Part shown: in pieces, positions 3-6,312 of the stretch
How positions within the stretch are numbered: position 1 is the stretch's first letter
Layout of the letters: each line of letters begins with the position of its first letter
The notes under the pieces: model-generated
Databases searched by the model: none
Told to the model about the DNA's origin: nothing
Seen by the model: the letters and a program-made list of their open reading frames with translations, nothing else
Made by a program: the position numbers and the translations under genes
Assembly: GCA_016213865.1 (NCBI GenBank)
Contig: JACQZL010000422.1
Location: 1-6,323 of the forward strand
DNA length: 6,323 nucleotides
Reading direction: 5' to 3'
Origin: Candidatus Rifleibacteriota bacterium
Lineage (GTDB): Bacteria > UBP17 > UBA6191 > JACPRK01

Positions 3-272
3 CCACCTCCGCCGCCCCCGCCGCCACCTCCGCCGACACCGCCGACGCCCCCGCCACCGCCGCCGACACCTCAGACCCCGCCACCACCTCCGACGCCGCC
101 GCCGACACCTCCTCCGCCGCCAACTCCGCCAACCCCTCCGCCTCCGCCGCCGCCGCCGACACCTCCTCCTCCGCCGCCAACTCCGCCGACACCGCCGCCA
201 CCCCAGCCACCGCCTCCACCTCCGCCGCCTCCCCCCCCGCCCCCGCCACCTCCCCCGCCGCCACCTCCGCCG
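3..272 (+). repeat. CCN-rich low-complexity tract encoding the Pro/Thr stalk
   Basis: This tract is built almost entirely of CCG, CCT, CCA and CCC codons with scattered ACN. It is imperfect with no fixed period, although the block ACA-CCT-CCT-(CCT)-CCG-CCG-CCA-ACT occurs twice (about 105-125 and 159-182). Such tracts change length easily by slippage or unequal recombination, and because the unit is a codon, length changes keep the frame. They are also prone to assembly error, so the length given here is less certain than other parts of the window. Confidence 0.8.
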
Positions 273-413
273 CGGCGACCGTGCGGCTGCATGGTCGCGG
301 GAGATAACTCGCAGTTCTCGCCTCTCGACCTCGTCGTCGGGCTTCTGCCGTTCCTGATCCTGCTGGCGCGCAGGCGGTTTCTGCCCGCGAGGAGACGCCG
401 AAGGCTCGAGTAG
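3..413 (+). CDS. C-terminal part of a proline-rich surface protein with a CTERM-like sorting tail (5' end outside window)
   Basis: The open frame runs in from the left edge and ends at TAG 411-413, giving 136 visible residues. The first 90 codons (3-272) encode about 77 Pro, 11 Thr and 2 Gln, a stiff extended stalk. Next come Arg-Arg-Pro, a Cys-Gly-Cys motif (282-290), a short polar stretch, FSPLDLVVG leading into a hydrophobic helix (visible residues about 108-122), then RRR and a second basic cluster RRRRR before the stop. A Cys motif, helix and Arg cluster at the extreme C-terminus is the layout of MYXO-CTERM/JDVT-CTERM-type signals, which are thought to be processed by intramembrane proteases during surface sorting. 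By inference this is a secreted, surface-anchored protein whose functional domains lie upstream of the window. The exact CTERM family cannot be fixed by eye. The frame is supported by the uninterrupted Pro reading and the coherent tail; other frames give only low-complexity Ala/Thr/Ser or Gly. Confidence 0.72.
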   Translation, partial: PPPPPPPPPPPTPPTPPPPPPTPQTPPPPPTPPPTPPPPPTPPTPPPPPPPPTPPPPPPTPPTPPPPQPPPPPPPPPPPPPPPPPPPPPPRRPCGCMVAGDNSQFSPLDLVVGLLPFLILLARRRFLPARRRRRLE

Positions 414-570: not shown

Positions 571-599
571 TTGACTCGAGGATGAGCCGGTGCTATACT
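571..599 (+). promoter_or_regulatory. Strong sigma-70 type promoter with extended -10
   Basis: The -35 box TTGACT (571-576) and the -10 box TATACT (594-599) are separated by exactly 17 bases. TGC directly before the -10 supplies the extended -10 TGn element. Each hexamer differs from consensus at one position (TTGACA, TATAAT). Transcription would start near 605-607. No convincing open reading frame with a ribosome binding site begins just downstream. Instead the next 600 bases are rich in RNA-like hairpins, so the promoter most simply drives an untranslated RNA or a long leader. The match is better than usually arises by chance in such GC-rich DNA. Confidence 0.75.
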
Positions 600-613
600 C
601 ACCGGCTCTCGAG
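575..613. promoter_or_regulatory. Large inverted repeat spanning the promoter -10 (operator candidate)
   Basis: GAGCCGGTG (584-592) and CACCGGCTC (600-608) form a perfect 9-bp inverted repeat around a 7-base centre (593-599) that contains the -10 hexamer. CTCGAG occurs again on both flanks (575-580 and 608-613), so the dyad extends outward by five pairs after a 4-base offset on the left side. Two half-sites framing a -10 box suit a dimeric DNA-binding repressor. Because the likely start site lies within or just after the right arm, the full hairpin would not form in the transcript, which favours a DNA-level role. No regulator for it is visible in the window. Confidence 0.55.
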
Positions 614-1203
614 CGGAGGGGCCTCCAAGAAACGGACGGGGTCGTCCGGAGGAAGCCAGTAACGTTCGAGATATCGAGAAGAGGTCTGCAGACCGAATCG
701 AGATCAAGCCGACAGGCCCGAGGGATCGGCTGGACGCAAGTCCGAAAGCAGAAGTGGCCCTGGGATCCTCCCGTACCGGAGGATGAGGTAGGACAAGGAT
801 CGTTCCGGAATCTCCAGGTCAAGGGTGACAAGTCCGCGAGGACGTAAGCTTCTGGAGAAAGGTCCTTTGAAGAATCGGTACTGAAGACAGGAAGTAACTT
901 TCAGCTGGAATTCGTTCCGCTGCTGGTGAGAAGGACCCCCGCCCTGTCCCGTCTGGAAGGTTCAAAGACTGACGCCGACCTTTCAGAGAGCTGTTTCCGC
1001 AGGCGCCAGGAGCGAATTCGAAGAGATTGCCTCAAATCGAGTTCAATCCTACAGAAAGCGGAATCATCGCCGTCAGCGGGTTGTTCGAGACGAAGGAGTA
1101 AAATCCCGAGTTTAGAACGACGTGGATGTGCCCAAGAGGGATAAGACCCCGCGCAAAATCGTCCACACCCAGTTCTCCCGGGCCTCAAGGTCTGGGAGTT
1201 CTG
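606..1203 (+). ncRNA. Candidate long structured RNA of unrecognised class (about 600 nt)
   Basis: The region follows a strong promoter, is visibly less GC-rich than the genes around it and has no long open frame with coding character. Local stems are dense: 622-626/648-652 with inner 634-638/643-647; GGTC-TGCA-GACC 683-694 inside 671-677/698-704; 707-712/726-731 directly abutting a GCAA-capped hairpin 732-743; 765-771/778-784; a three-way junction closed by 811-817/852-858, with arms 818-829 and 832-843 (GCGA loop), itself enclosed by 790-794/862-866; 881-885/900-904 or, as an alternative, the UUCG-capped hairpin 902-922 with one bulged U; 1122-1128/1160-1166; and 1170-1203. GNRA and UUCG caps, coaxial-looking adjacent stems and a junction are typical of folded RNAs. 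I could not match it to RNase P RNA, tmRNA, SRP RNA, 6S RNA or a group I/II intron. The start is inferred from the promoter and the end from the last hairpin. It may instead be the leader of the downstream kinase operon. Confidence 0.42.
1170..1203 (+). terminator. Strong hairpin, possible 3' end of the RNA candidate
   Basis: CTCCCGGGCC (1175-1184) pairs with GGTCTGGGAG (1189-1198) over 10 pairs, two of them G-U, around a TCAA tetraloop. CAG (1170-1172) and CTG (1201-1203) extend it beyond a TT/TT internal loop. The 3' flank is only moderately T-rich (TTCTGTCATT), so it is an imperfect intrinsic terminator. The G-U wobbles pair in the plus-strand RNA but become A-C mismatches in the minus-strand RNA, so the hairpin belongs to plus-strand RNA. 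It could equally be a terminal structural domain. Confidence 0.4.
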
Positions 1204-1376
1204 TCATTCCGGACGCTCGCCGGGAAGCAGCGCGAGTTCGTCACGCGGCCAGAGGCTCATCTCAAGACCTACCCCTCGGCCAGGGAGTACCCGGCCGGGC
1301 TCTGCGGACAGGGCGGCATCTCGATGGCTCCGCCGACAAGGAAGCCGTCGTCAGGTTCCTGAAGGCAACTCGTTGA
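1204..1376 (+). other. Unassigned stretch, possibly containing a short gene remnant
   Basis: In one frame ending at TGA 1374-1376 the last codons read LDGSADKEAVVRFLKATR, which looks like the end of a real protein and has mostly G or C in the third codon position. Upstream the same frame gives Arg- and Ser-rich sequence without recognisable domain character and no start with a ribosome binding site. This could be the decayed 3' end of an older gene or chance. I see no RNA gene here and assign no function. Confidence 0.2.
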
Positions 1377-1402
1377 CGCGGCCGGGCCGCGGGCAGGACA
1401 AT
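1373..1402 (+). promoter_or_regulatory. Weak promoter candidate for the kinase-regulator operon
   Basis: TTGACG (1373-1378) and GACAAT (1397-1402) lie 18 bases apart. The -35 is a good match but the -10 fits TATAAT at only four of six positions. A start near 1409 would leave a leader of about 25 bases before ATG 1435 and would exclude the TTG at 1402 as start codon. The alternative is read-through from the strong promoter at 571-599. Confidence 0.25.
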
Positions 1403-1434: not shown

Positions 1435-2595
1435 ATGACCGACAGGACCGACAACGCGGAGCGTGACCTGGCCCAGTGGGCCCTGCGCGAGCGCGTCAAG
1501 GAATTGACGTGCCTCTACGGCATCGCCAGGGTCGCCGACAAGACCGGCATCCCGTTGGAAGAGGTAGTCCAGCACGTGGTGGAGCTGTTGCCGCCGGCGT
1601 GGCAGTATCCGGAGGTGGCCTGTGCGCGCATCACGTTCGAAGGGCGGGAGTGCTGCTCGGCGGGCTTCGTCGCAGGCGGTCAGAGCCTGGCCTCGGAGAT
1701 CCTCATCGACGGCGCGAAGCGCGGCCAGGTCGAGCTCGTCTACGTCGAGGAAAGACCGCGTCACGACGAGGGGCCTTTCCTGAAGGAGGAACGCAGCCTC
1801 ATCAACGAGGTGGCGCGCCAGATGTCCCTGATCCTCGCGAGGCGTCAGGCCGAGGAGGACCGGGCGCGGCTTCAGGAGCAACTTCGCCGGGTCGACCGCC
1901 TGGCCACGATCGGCCAGCTCGCGGCCGGCGTGGCGCACGAACTCAACGAGCCGCTCGGCGCAATTCTCGGCTATGCCCAGCTCACGCTGAAGGGATTCGG
2001 AATCCCGGACCAGATGTCCCGGAACCTCGAGAAGATCGTCAAGGCGTCTCTCCACAGCCGGGAGATCATTCGCAAGCTGCTTCTCTTTGCGCGGCAGGTG
2101 CCCTCCGAGAAGCGGGCCGTCGACCTCAACCAGATGGTCAAGGAGAGCCTCTATCTGGTGGAGACGAGGTGTGCAAAGGCGAAGGTCCAGCTCGTGCTCA
2201 GGCTGGCCAAGGACCTGCCCGCGGTGCCGGCCGATCCCGGGCAGATGCAGCAGGTGATGCTGAATCTCGCCGTGAACGCAGTGCAGTCGATGCCCTCGGG
2301 AGGCACGCTACGGGTCATCACCGAGAGGGCGGAGGGCCACGTGCGGCTCGCCGTCGAAGACACCGGCGTCGGGATGGAGCCGGAGGTCGTGGCGAAGATC
2401 TTCAACCCGTTCTTCACCACCAAGGATGTCGGCCAGGGAACGGGCCTGGGGCTCTCGATGGTTCACGGTATCGTTACGGCCCACGGGGGGACGGTCGAGG
2501 TCCAGAGCCTGCCGGGGAAGGGGTCTCGTTTCGACGTGCTCCTGCCGCTGGCCGCGGGAGGCGCGCCGCTCGCTTCTTCAGGTGATCGAGCATGA
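1435..2595 (+). CDS. Soluble two-component sensor histidine kinase (GAF-like sensor, HisKA, HATPase)
   Basis: From ATG 1435 the protein has 386 residues and no membrane segment, so it is a cytoplasmic sensor. Residues about 10-135 form a GAF-like sensory region starting with [17 protein letters not shown]; its ligand is unknown, and its Cys residues (RECCSAGF) are notable. A helical linker leads to the H-box [19 protein letters not shown] with phospho-accepting His168. The ATPase domain has the N-box NLAVNAVQ (Asn281), G1 DTGVGM (from Asp309), F-box FNPFFTTK (323-330) and G2 GQGTGLGLS (333-341), all intact. The kinase should autophosphorylate and pass phosphate to the next gene's product, which it overlaps by four bases (ATGA). 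An in-frame TTG at 1402 would add 11 Arg-rich residues; I prefer ATG because the added segment is unlike the family and the AGGA before the TTG is only 3 bases away. Neither start has a good ribosome binding site. NtrB-like in architecture, but the signal is unproven. Confidence 0.88.
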
Positions 2596-3839
2596 CGGCA
2601 GGGCGAGTTCTCGTCGTGGACGACGCACCCGACACTCTCGACATCATCGAGCAGAATCTCACCTCGCGCGGCTACGACGTCGTGGCTGTCTCGAGCGCGC
2701 GGGAGGCCCTGCGACTGCTCGCGGCTCGGCCGTTCGAGCTTGTCGTGACGGACATGAAGATGCCGGGGATGAGTGGGCTCGAGTTGGTGAAGCACGTTCG
2801 CGAGCGCCACCCTGACACCGAAGTGATGATGATCACGGGCTACGCGACGATCGAGGGCGCGGTCGAGGCCGTCAAGACTGGTGCCGAGGAGTATCTCGCC
2901 AAGCCCTTCACCGACGACGAGCTGCTCTGCGCGGTCGATCGCGCTCTCGAGAAGCTGCGGTCCCGGGGCAAGGCGCGGGCCGGCGAATCCGGCCGCTTCG
3001 GACTGGTCGGCCGTTCGAGCGCCATTCGCGCGGCCTTCGCCGCGATGGACCGGGCGTCGCGCCATGGGAACCCCGTCCTCGTTCTCGGCGAGCCGGGCAC
3101 AGGCCGGTGGGCTGCAGTTCGTGCGATCGCCGCCCGGAGCCGAGAGCCGGCGGCCGCCTTCATGCTCCTCGACGCGGCCTCGGATGACGCCGCGTGGCCG
3201 GACGATCCGGCCTCCGCGCTTGGCGGCGCGGCGGGGCTCTTCGTCAGGGATGCGGACCAAGCCGGGCCGGCAGTGCAAGGCAAGCTGCGAAAGCTGGTGG
3301 CGTCCCACGCCTCCTTGCCCGCTCGCGTCTACGTCTCGGCCAGCGGCGACCTGCCGGTGCTCGCGAGCGCCGGACTGTTCGCCCAGGAACTTTGCGAGAT
3401 GCTGTCAGGAGCGACCGTGGCCCTGCCTCCCTTGAGACAGCGCGGTGACGACGTGGCGCTGCTGGCCGAGCACTTCGCCAGGGTCTGGGCGGTGCGGCAA
3501 GGACAGGCGGCCCCCGCGTTCGCGGCGGCCGCAATGGGGGCCCTGGAGTCCTATGCGTGGCCGGGAAACGTGCGGGAGCTGCTGTCTGCCGTGCAGGGCG
3601 CGCCTCTTCGGTCGGCGGGCCGCGAAGTCGGGGTCGCCGACCTTCCGGAGGCCGTGCGGGCCGCGGCCGCCTCCGGCACCCTCGGCACTCTGGCCGAGGC
3701 CGAGGCCGCGCACATCCTGAGGGTCCTGGCGCACGCCGGAGGCAACCGCCGGCGCGCCTCCGAGATCCTGCACATCGATCGCAAGACGCTGCGTCTGAAG
3801 CTCAGGGAGCTGGGACATGACTCCGGCGAGGGCGACTGA
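2592..3839 (+). CDS. NtrC-architecture response regulator with degenerate AAA domain lacking GAFTGA
   Basis: A 415-residue protein. Receiver domain, residues about 4-120: acidic pair Asp10/Asp11, phospho-acceptor Asp54 (VVTDMKMPG), Thr82 and Lys104-Pro105, all intact. Central AAA domain, about 135-345: the Walker A position reads GEPGTGRW (166-173), with Arg172 where Lys is normal. The Walker B position reads GLFVRDAD (215-222) instead of GGTLFLDE. About 16 residues between them are missing, including the ELFG...GAFTGA loop that contacts sigma-54. The arginine-finger region LPPLRQR (Arg282/Arg284) and sensor II WPGNVREL (from Trp323) remain. Residues about 370-408 are a Fis-type helix-turn-helix (GGNRRRASEILHIDRKTLRLKLRELG). 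It is therefore probably a phosphorylation-controlled DNA-binding protein that does not hydrolyse ATP or remodel sigma-54 holoenzyme in the usual way. Translation is coupled to the kinase through ATGA. Confidence 0.88.
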   Translation: MTAGRVLVVDDAPDTLDIIEQNLTSRGYDVVAVSSAREALRLLAARPFELVVTDMKMPGMSGLELVKHVRERHPDTEVMMITGYATIEGAVEAVKTGAEEYLAKPFTDDELLCAVDRALEKLRSRGKARAGESGRFGLVGRSSAIRAAFAAMDRASRHGNPVLVLGEPGTGRWAAVRAIAARSREPAAAFMLLDAASDDAAWPDDPASALGGAAGLFVRDADQAGPAVQGKLRKLVASHASLPARVYVSASGDLPVLASAGLFAQELCEMLSGATVALPPLRQRGDDVALLAEHFARVWAVRQGQAAPAFAAAAMGALESYAWPGNVRELLSAVQGAPLRSAGREVGVADLPEAVRAAAASGTLGTLAEAEAAHILRVLAHAGGNRRRASEILHIDRKTLRLKLRELGHDSGEGD

Positions 3840-3844
3840 AACCC

Positions 3845-3896
3845 AGGACGCCTCGCCGGCTTCGGCCCCTCGAGGCCTGGACCGGCGAGGCGTCCT
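3845..3896. terminator. Shared hairpin between convergent genes
   Basis: AGGACGCCTCGCCGG (3845-3859) pairs perfectly with 3882-3896 to give a 15-bp GC-rich stem. The 22-base loop contains a further GGCC/GGCC pairing (3864-3867 with 3874-3877). It sits 5 bases after the regulator stop (TGA 3837-3839) and 11 bases beyond the porin stop on the other strand, so it can serve both convergent operons. There is no real T-run on the plus side (CTCTCGCG); the minus-strand side has only a short T stretch (GGGTTTCAG). It may act more as a 3' end stabiliser or pause than as a classical intrinsic terminator. Confidence 0.7.
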
Positions 3897-3907: not shown

Positions 3908-5062
3908 TCAGTAGACGAGCATCAGGTTGATCGAGGCCGTGAACTGGCTGTCGGCCGGCGTGACTCCGTCGAAGAAGCTGGCCGTCGATGACCAATCCTT
4001 GCGCAGATCGGCCCGGATGATCGTGTGCTCATCGATGCGGTACTCGGGCGTGAAAGTGACCTCGCGCAAGGTCTGGGCGACTCCCGTGCGCGCGCCGTCG
4101 AGATCGTCGAACACCTCACCCCGGAAGTTGAGCGCCCACTTCTTCGATACGGCCACGCGCGCATAGCCGGCCGTGCCTCTCCAGCTCGCATCCGCTCCGA
4201 GCCCGAGGGCGTTCTGCTCGCGACCGTGGTCGAAGTTGAGCCCGAGACTCAGGGTGTCCGAGGCCTTCCACTGGACGATGACGTCGAGCACCGACCGATC
4301 GTTGCCGTTGTTCCCCGTCTGCTCGGGGCCGGTCATCCCGTTGAGGGTGATCGTCCACGCGGGGTCGAGCGCGTAGAGGAGCTGATAGCCGACCGACTTG
4401 GCCGAGTTGTTGTCCTGGAAGTTGTCCCAGCCCTGGACGACGTGCAACTGCCCCGAGAGCTTGTCGGTCAGGGGATAGCTCAGTCGCAGACCCGTGTGGG
4501 TGAAGGGAATGGCGTAACCGAAGAGAAACGAACGGGTATGGTTCGTGTTCCAGCCATCGTAGCCTTCGATCAGCTCGTAGCCCATGTGCGTGACGAACTT
4601 GCCCAGGTCGACCCGCAGCCCTTTGCCCACGGGGGCGATCCAGCTTGCGTAGGCTTGCTTGAGGTCGACGTCGTCCGCCTCGCCGGTCTTCGCGTCGCGG
4701 AAGAGCCCGGATTGGGCCGTGACCCGTGGGATGGTGCTGCCCGCCTCGGCGTCGATGCGGAATCCGGTCTCGCCGGGCTTCGAGATAGCCTTCTGGACCG
4801 CGACCTCGGCCACGTCCAGTTCCAGCGTCCTATCCCGGAAGTCGAAGACGCGAAACCCGTTGCGTCGCACGGCCGGACGGTTTGAGTTCATCGTGCGGGA
4901 GGCCGAGACGAATCCGTTCCAGGTGAGCTCGGAGCCGGTCGCGGCCTCGGTCGCGACCGGCGCCGCCGGCTGGCTCTGCTGGGCCGCCGCCGGAACGGAG
5001 GCCAGCAGCAGGAGGGTGAACGCAAGCCGGAAACCGGACCAGAGTGCGGTGGGCAATTTCAT
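3908..5062 (-). CDS. Outer-membrane beta-barrel porin, BBP2 (OmpL-like) type
   Basis: A 384-residue protein from ATG 5062-5060. It starts with a signal peptide: Lys2, a hydrophobic core LAFTLLLLASV, and an AAA-Q site giving predicted cleavage after residue 27. A Pro/Ala/Thr-rich linker follows, then long alternating beta-strand sequence to the end. Recognisable family stretches include LELDVAEVAVQK, KFVTHMGYELIEGYDGWN, TRSFLFGYAIPFTHTGLRL and HVVQGWDNFQDN, as in the putative beta-barrel porin-2 family. The last residue is Tyr (LMLVY), the aromatic C-terminal signal for BAM insertion. The family is thought to form outer-membrane channels; the substrate is unknown. A strong Shine-Dalgarno GAGGAGGG (5076-5069) lies 6 bases before the start, inside the 3' end of the Amt gene. 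The frame stays open far upstream of this ATG, but the signal peptide, Shine-Dalgarno and overlap with amt fix the start. Confidence 0.87.
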   Translation of the reverse strand: MKLPTALWSGFRLAFTLLLLASVPAAAQQSQPAAPVATEAATGSELTWNGFVSASRTMNSNRPAVRRNGFRVFDFRDRTLELDVAEVAVQKAISKPGETGFRIDAEAGSTIPRVTAQSGLFRDAKTGEADDVDLKQAYASWIAPVGKGLRVDLGKFVTHMGYELIEGYDGWNTNHTRSFLFGYAIPFTHTGLRLSYPLTDKLSGQLHVVQGWDNFQDNNSAKSVGYQLLYALDPAWTITLNGMTGPEQTGNNGNDRSVLDVIVQWKASDTLSLGLNFDHGREQNALGLGADASWRGTAGYARVAVSKKWALNFRGEVFDDLDGARTGVAQTLREVTFTPEYRIDEHTIIRADLRKDWSSTASFFDGVTPADSQFTASINLMLVY

Positions 5063-6312
5063 CACATACCCTCCTCGAGATAGGCCCTCTCGCCGTGCAG
5101 TCCTTCGTCGAGACCGATCTCCTCGGTGCTCTCGTCGACGCGGACGGTCGTGATCTTGTTGATCGCCCAGAGCATCCCCAGCGTGAAGACGAAAGCCCAG
5201 GCCGAGGACACCAGCACGGCAGCGCACTCGACCAGGAAGAAATGCACGTTGCCCTGGAGCAGCCCGTCGACGCCGCCCATCGAGGCCGGGTTGAAAGCTG
5301 TCGACGCGAAGATGCCGCAGAGAATGATGCCGAGAAAGCCGCCCACGCCGTGGACGCCCCACACGTCGAGCGCGTCGTCCCAGCCGAGCTTGTTCTTGAG
5401 CGCGACCGCGTAGAAGCAGACAATGCCGGCGATGAGGCCGATGATGCAGGCTGTCGTGGGGGAGACGTAACCCGCGGCCGGCGTGATCGTGGCGAGACCC
5501 GCGACAGCCCCGGTGAGTAGCCCCAGGAACTTGGGCTGCTTCGACGTTATCCAGTCCATCGCGAGCCAGGCCACGGCGGCGAAGGAAGCCGAGATGTCCG
5601 TGTTGAGAAAGGCCACGGCCGTCACGGAGTCGACCCGGAACTCGCTCCCGGCGTTGAACCCGTACCAGCCGAACCAGAGCAACCCGGTGCCAAGGGCCAC
5701 GAGCGGGATGCTGTGAGGGCCTCGGTCGGCGATCTTGCGCTTGCCCACGTAGAGGATCGAAGCCAGGGCCGCGATGCCCGCGATGTTGTGGACGACGATG
5801 CCTCCGGCGAAGTCCTTGACGCCCCAGGCTGCCATGATGCCGCCGCCCCAGACCATGTGGACGAACGGGAAGTAGACGAACAGCAGCCAGCCCGTCAGGA
5901 ACCACATGTACGCCTTGAAGGTGACCCGGTTCGTGAAGGCGCCCGTGATCAGCGCGGGCGTGATGATCGCGAACATCATCTGGTAGGCGCAGAAGACGAT
6001 CATCGGGATCGTGTCGTTGGGCGAGGGCATATCGAGTGTGATCCCTCTCAGGCCGACCCAGTTGAAGTTCCCGACGATCCCGAAGAAGTCGGTGCCCGAC
6101 TTGAGGTCACCCGAGAAACAGAGAGAGAATCCGACGGCCCACCACAGGACGGTGGTCCATCCCATCGAGACGAAGCTCTGGATCATGATCGCCAGGACGT
6201 TCTTTCGTCCGACGAGGCCTCCGTAGAAGAAGGCCAGGCCGGGTGTCATCAGCATCACCAGGCTGCTGCAGAGCAGCATGAACCCGGTGTTTCCGGTGTC
6301 CAGATGGAGCAT
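5062..6312 (-). CDS. amt: Ammonium channel/transporter, Amt/MEP/Rh family
   Basis: A 416-residue inner-membrane protein, near the usual bacterial length, with about 11 hydrophobic helices. It lacks the cleavable signal peptide of E. coli AmtB and begins directly before helix 1 (FMLLCSSLVMLMTPGLAFFYGGL). Family landmarks are intact: Trp155 (MVWGGG), Asp167 and His175 (DFAGGIVVHNIAG), Phe219 and Ser223 (GFNAGS), and the second pore histidine His321 (DVWGVHGVGG). His175 and His321 match the twin-histidine pore pair, and Phe115 is the probable pore-gate Phe. The cytoplasmic tail carries GLDEGLHGERAY, close to the family's GLD-EHGE-AY motif, where PII/GlnK-linked control normally acts. No PII gene is in view; it could lie upstream, outside the window. 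GAGAGGG (6323-6317) lies 4 bases before ATG 6312-6310. The stop TGA shares one base with the porin start, so the two are translationally coupled. Confidence 0.95.
   Translation of the reverse strand: MLHLDTGNTGFMLLCSSLVMLMTPGLAFFYGGLVGRKNVLAIMIQSFVSMGWTTVLWWAVGFSLCFSGDLKSGTDFFGIVGNFNWVGLRGITLDMPSPNDTIPMIVFCAYQMMFAIITPALITGAFTNRVTFKAYMWFLTGWLLFVYFPFVHMVWGGGIMAAWGVKDFAGGIVVHNIAGIAALASILYVGKRKIADRGPHSIPLVALGTGLLWFGWYGFNAGSEFRVDSVTAVAFLNTDISASFAAVAWLAMDWITSKQPKFLGLLTGAVAGLATITPAAGYVSPTTACIIGLIAGIVCFYAVALKNKLGWDDALDVWGVHGVGGFLGIILCGIFASTAFNPASMGGVDGLLQGNVHFFLVECAAVLVSSAWAFVFTLGMLWAINKITTVRVDESTEEIGLDEGLHGERAYLEEGM
5069..5076 (-). promoter_or_regulatory. Ribosome binding site of the porin gene
   Basis: The minus strand reads GAGGAGGG, 6 bases before the porin ATG. 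It is embedded in the codons for the last residues of Amt (LEEGM). Together with the TGATG overlap this supports termination-reinitiation coupling and decides the porin start codon. Confidence 0.8.

Follow-up and report, generated by a model that had tools for sequence, protein, structure and literature searches.

A noncoding segment of approx. 600 nt (positions 606-1203, plus strand) in the 6,323-nt stretch of DNA analyzed here (the window) may represent a lineage-restricted, free-standing structured noncoding RNA, a tentative reading to which we assign a probability of roughly 0.4. We rank this reading best because three features concur: a promoter match at the start of the segment, a predicted structure well defined on only the plus strand, and the boundaries of this structure. 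Nearly as likely is that the segment is a long stretch of intergenic spacer DNA, either neutral or decayed, with hairpins that are the chance yield of 600 bases and were picked for their striking look, as no homologue supports the fold and folding energies of this kind are not rare in genomic DNA. Overall, the single-sequence evidence leans towards the undescribed long structured RNA proposed in a preliminary description of this DNA, since the segment is noncoding and well defined on one strand, has a fold with a boundary near the start expected from the promoter and matches no Rfam family. It is an orphan candidate noncoding RNA, possibly a new RNA and possibly no more than a long gap between genes.

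The segment lies in a gap without coding of approx. 1 kb (414-1434), flanked by a gene for a proline-rich protein and by a histidine kinase/response regulator gene pair (Table 1). The proline-rich reading frame, which had no match in Pfam or NCBIfam, resembles surface proteins that carry a sorting signal (i.e., a hydrophobic stretch followed by an arginine-rich tail). Both the kinase and the ammonium transporter are 100% matches to database proteins encoded on an NCBI contig of 10,879 bases; for the kinase, this protein (P0001, 386 aa) is 1 aa longer than 1438-2592. Among named relatives, those closest to the transporter (87-88% identity) belong to MAGs of Holophagales, Planctomycetes and Thermoanaerobaculia, with unnamed relatives at 90-92%, and several of the kinase relatives at 66-71% are of metagenome origin. 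The DNA probably stems from a sparsely sampled lineage close to the Acidobacteriota. The AAA+ domain of the response regulator has neither a GAFTGA motif nor the Walker A lysine (GEPGTGRW), and with both lost this protein is probably no activator of sigma-54; of 10 regulator orthologues, four lack GAFTGA (the window, L001, L112 and L111) and the other six have it (L002, L004, L006, L017, L010 and L110). On the minus strand, the porin gene immediately follows the ammonium transporter gene, and this pair faces the kinase and regulator genes. The porin-transporter pairing was found again in genome G193 (locus L128) and the kinase-regulator-porin order in L001, a recurring neighbourhood of gene content that suggests a nitrogen-related regulon.

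Table 1. Genes, promoter-like sites and predicted RNA elements in the window.
Feature	Position	Strand	Details
Pro-rich reading frame	3-413	+	Tandem repeats; C-terminal hydrophobic stretch, then Arg-rich tail
Sigma-70-type promoter-like site	571-599	+	TTGACT-17-TATACT, TG before -10; 10/12 consensus matches
Perfect 9-bp inverted repeat	584-608		Arms 584-592/600-608; -10 box within 7-base spacer
Predicted 5' hairpin	607-671	+	Helix probabilities 0.97-0.99
Predicted branched domain A	684-888	+	Holds both GNRA hairpins; closing helices p 0.88-0.99
Predicted branched domain B	903-1174	+	Closed by 903-908/1169-1174, p 0.92
Predicted 3' hairpin	1175-1198	+	10 bp, p 1.00; tail TTCTGTCATT
Second promoter-like site	1373-1402	+	TTGACG-18-GACAAT; 9/12 matches; candidate promoter of kinase
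Histidine kinase (HisKA, HATPase_c)	1435-2595	+	Pfam; ATG at 1435
NtrC-type response regulator	2592-3839	+	
BBP2 porin	3908-5062	-	
Ammonium transporter	5062-6312	-	

Codon-phase statistics and protein-family scans both indicated that 606-1203 does not encode protein. The codon-phase G+C spread ranged from 0.06 to 0.15 in 300-nt windows across 401-1450, as compared to 0.20 to 0.52 in windows starting at 1451-3851. Of the 19 stop-to-stop segments with at least 38 aa in 560-1440, 14 were scanned, each against one or more libraries; 10 segments showed no match in Pfam, and 10 segments searched against both NCBIfam and PHROGs showed two insignificant NCBIfam matches (E = 0.075 and E = 0.13) and no PHROGs match. 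Segment 575-844, compared against 5.8 billion proteins, had no match at E ≤ 10. A coding remnant was rejected on these grounds, i.e., no codon periodicity and no protein-family match among the segments scanned, and this lack of any coding trace counts against a decayed spacer and in favor of a structured noncoding RNA gene, for which absence of protein coding is expected. These data bear out the preliminary description, which had found no coding character here and had noted a segment poorer in G+C than its surroundings (0.55-0.57, as compared to 0.64 immediately upstream and 0.70 immediately downstream).

The strong promoter match said to lie where the segment starts was also recovered, as the site at 571-599 is the only sigma-70-like match with at least 10 of 12 consensus bases in the window when both strands are scanned. 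Ten comparison loci (226,150 strand-bases) together contained one such match. That this sole match sits on the strand with the better fold, and that the first predicted helix (starting at 607) adjoins the start site expected from it, supports a free-standing RNA, and the strength of the match speaks against a spacer, although the site is a putative promoter by consensus match and not proof of transcription. The inverted repeat enclosing the -10 box is notable mainly for its position, since 8.3% of 300 shuffles contain a comparable dyad at some point in 400-1450. It may be an operator, or simply a hairpin; as a stable hairpin it may also be the whole basis of the apparent promoter, a prospect that weakens the promoter reading and thereby the case for a free-standing RNA.

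The minimum free energy of 606-1203 (plus strand) was -231.0 kcal/mol, and 24 of the 42 predicted helices had a mean pair probability of at least 0.9. Boundaries taken from the fold itself inflate the z-scores of single domains, and the values for 606-671 (z = -3.75; 80 shuffles) and for domain B (z = -4.47) are of this kind. Domain A was less distinct, with z = -1.54 for 689-883 and with partly weak inner helices (e.g., 704-707/867-870, p = 0.28; 790-794/862-866, p = 0.49). Among the local stems reported in the preliminary description, the two GNRA hairpins (732-743, p = 0.99; 832-843, p = 0.97) and the terminal 10-bp hairpin at 1175-1198 were well predicted. A three-way junction proposed for 811-858 was not recovered, this region folding on its own as a single long hairpin with internal loops. 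The UUCG-capped stem at 902-922 formed in isolation (-7.3 kcal/mol) but not in the fold of the whole region, where its strands pair over long range (903-908/1169-1174, p = 0.92; 917-922/1074-1079, p = 0.99). Tetraloop-capped hairpins were nonetheless more numerous than in shuffled sequences (4 observed, shuffle mean 0.81; P = 0.012), which is in favor of a structured RNA. The 3' hairpin may be a weak terminator; a scan for intrinsic terminators (requiring at least 5 T in 8 bases) on the plus strand of 400-1700 listed none, not even this hairpin. The lack of a strong intrinsic terminator argues against a free-standing RNA. The list of repeats around 606-1203 contained no clear terminal inverted repeats.

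We compared the fold of the region to dinucleotide-shuffled controls as well as to genomic windows. The z-score of the minimum free energy (plus strand) was -2.63, -3.08, -3.20 and -2.29 with 100, 200, 80 and 20 shuffles, respectively; one of 200 shuffles was as stable, and none of 200 matched the positional entropy (0.463) or the ensemble diversity (64.6). The minus strand was ordinary as compared to its own shuffles. The folding energy of the region as a whole is thus better than that of shuffled controls, and on the plus strand only, which is not what a spacer would lead one to expect. Moreover, among eight frames of 598 nt placed between 306 and 1403, both the lowest z-score and the lowest entropy were found at 606-1203, in further support of a free-standing RNA. 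Only 2 of 200 genomic windows with the same length and a matching G+C, sampled from 548 in the comparison loci, were as low in entropy (approx. the top 1%), another point against a spacer. Among 16 gene windows of the same contig, however, one (5624-6221, plus strand) was nearly as well defined, with an entropy of 0.469, as a spacer folding by accident would allow.

Comparisons of energy to the genomic background were less favorable. Of 106 background windows, eight reached a z-score of -2.63 and six reached -3.0, and among 89 background windows containing a closed domain 195-300 nt in length, six had one at or below the -4.47 of domain B. These comparisons, if anything, flatter the region, since under the procedure used for the background windows (20 shuffles) it scored only -2.29 as a whole, its best domain reaching -3.39. 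Energies of this order are therefore not rare in genomic DNA, which fits a spacer and argues against a free-standing RNA. A scan with 150-nt windows showed that the signal came from both ends, the central part of the region (701-1050) being ordinary; at 551-700, moreover, the z-score was lower on the minus strand (-4.62) than on the plus strand (-2.94). Both observations count against a free-standing RNA, and an ordinary middle is what a spacer would show. Overall, the fold signal is clear against shuffled sequences and moderate against genomic windows.

Searches for relatives covered overlapping sets of genomes. Using blastn, short matches were found in 9 of 10 genomes at E ≤ 1 (best E = 0.026) and none in 13 genomes at E ≤ 0.01; at E ≤ 0.05, matches occurred in 59 of 396 genomes (best E = 0.0025) and at E ≤ 0.01 in 4 of 119 (best E = 0.0020), none of which was judged a credible relative. 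The listed matches spanned 18 to 44 bases, and many fell on 1051-1096, where the composition is codon-like. The three that were inspected lie in reading frames, two of them (G309 and G293) in long open frames and one (G205, locus L090) at the start of a 291-aa reading frame. The same L090 locus gave the best match (E = 0.0088) in an nhmmer search over 1.57 Mb of comparison loci, and blastn against phages and plasmids gave no match.

Covariance models of 684-888 (R1) and 903-1174 (R2) were built from one sequence given twice each, at approx. 0.59 bits per position, and were searched against overlapping genome sets, those with more than 40 genomes being scored under stricter filters. R1, which recovers the window itself at 259 bits, matched none of 162, 10 and 267 genomes. 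R2 showed matches in 2 of 41 and 3 of 267 genomes, two of these shared between sets. The two best lie within genes that encode a FecR/Glucodextran_B and an EcsC protein, respectively, and the third (G227, L169) in the 3' portion of a reading frame of 582 aa, and all three were rejected as chance. Over nine loci of blastn matches, R2 gave one match of 5.1 bits. With regard to diverged copies, negative results from such single-sequence models are weak evidence. Four pattern scans of viral contigs yielded 9, 3, 1 and 24 stretches, in which R1 found nothing and R2 matched only 23 bases around its seed in two stretches (12.7 bits); the longest blastn match there (L134) lies inside a 2040-aa reading frame. 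Overall, no credible homologue of 606-1203 was found in the genome sets, phages, plasmids or viral contigs searched, and hence there is no covariation to support a free-standing RNA, as would be the case for a spacer.

The closest syntenic kinase locus, L001 from an Acidobacteria MAG (kinase 64%, regulator 48% and porin 51% identity), carries in place of the segment an opposite-strand reading frame, cupin-like by eye, close upstream of the kinase gene. The segment would thus be lineage-specific, or freely gained and lost. This locus also bears on whether transcription starting near 606 runs on into the kinase gene as a structured 5' leader of approx. 830 nt for the kinase/regulator operon. The kinase is the next gene downstream on the same strand with no strong terminator in between, 606-1440 folds with z = -2.93 (none of 20 shuffles as stable), and low codon-phase spread extends more than 1 kb upstream of the kinase in some of 18 related loci (e.g., L005, L009 and L010), although this statistic is weak at the G+C of these loci. 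However, we consider such a leader unlikely, given the arrangement in L001 and the second promoter-like site at 1373-1402; the 10-bp hairpin at 1175-1198 also stands against it.

If 606-1203 is a free-standing RNA, we infer that it would be transcribed independently of the kinase gene, starting near 606 from the putative promoter at 571-599 and ending near the hairpin at 1175-1198. Once folded, the transcript would comprise the 5' hairpin, the branched domains A (684-888) and B (903-1174) and the 3' hairpin, and might then act in trans as a scaffold or catalyst, not as a messenger. A repressor may switch this RNA via the inverted repeat that encloses the -10 box. It is tempting to go further and regard the segment as the first known representative of an undescribed class of large bacterial RNAs with several domains, restricted to a poorly sampled lineage near the Acidobacteriota, with its own strong promoter, repressor control via the -10 dyad and a role as an RNA machine or scaffold; taken together, we consider these propositions improbable.

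It is very improbable that the segment belongs to a known RNA class and has diverged so strongly that the Rfam models miss it. The covariance search suggested in the preliminary description recognized no known class, with no match to Rfam at E ≤ 1 in the whole window; at E ≤ 10, four matches were found over 540-1450, none of them OLE, ROOL or GOLLD. The best sub-threshold plus-strand match with base pairs was poplar-1 (RF03041) at 608-702, a weak alignment over the full length of the model that starts near the expected 5' end. This candidate was rejected, since its 14.5 bits compare to a gathering score of 110.5 and E = 1.3 is at chance level. Domain 5 of group II introns is a stem with a GNRA loop and a 2-nt bulge, and this pattern, allowing up to 3 mispairs, had no match on either strand of 400-1450; an ARAGORN scan for tRNA and tmRNA reported 0 genes. 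No such class from Acidobacteriota appeared among the matches listed in literature searches on poplar-1, on GOLLD and ROOL with Acidobacteria, and on large structured bacterial RNAs.

Few large structured RNA classes are known from bacteria, and three of these assemble into complexes made of RNA alone (PMC12286853). Another such class would be valuable, if true, but an orphan without homologues is indistinguishable from a spacer that folds by accident. Circularly permuted group II introns, which average approx. 900 nt (PMC8637638), resemble 606-1203 as large structured noncoding RNAs free of reading frames, whereas the segment has no domain-5-like stem in 400-1450 and no Rfam group II match. 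OLE RNA is approx. 600 nt long (PMC9723947), and the OLE, ROOL and GOLLD classes have hundreds to thousands of members (PMC12286853). Unlike these classes, 606-1203 has no Rfam match, no homologue found and no phage or tRNA-island setting, but it is like them in being noncoding, in having a length of similar order and in its predicted multi-domain fold.
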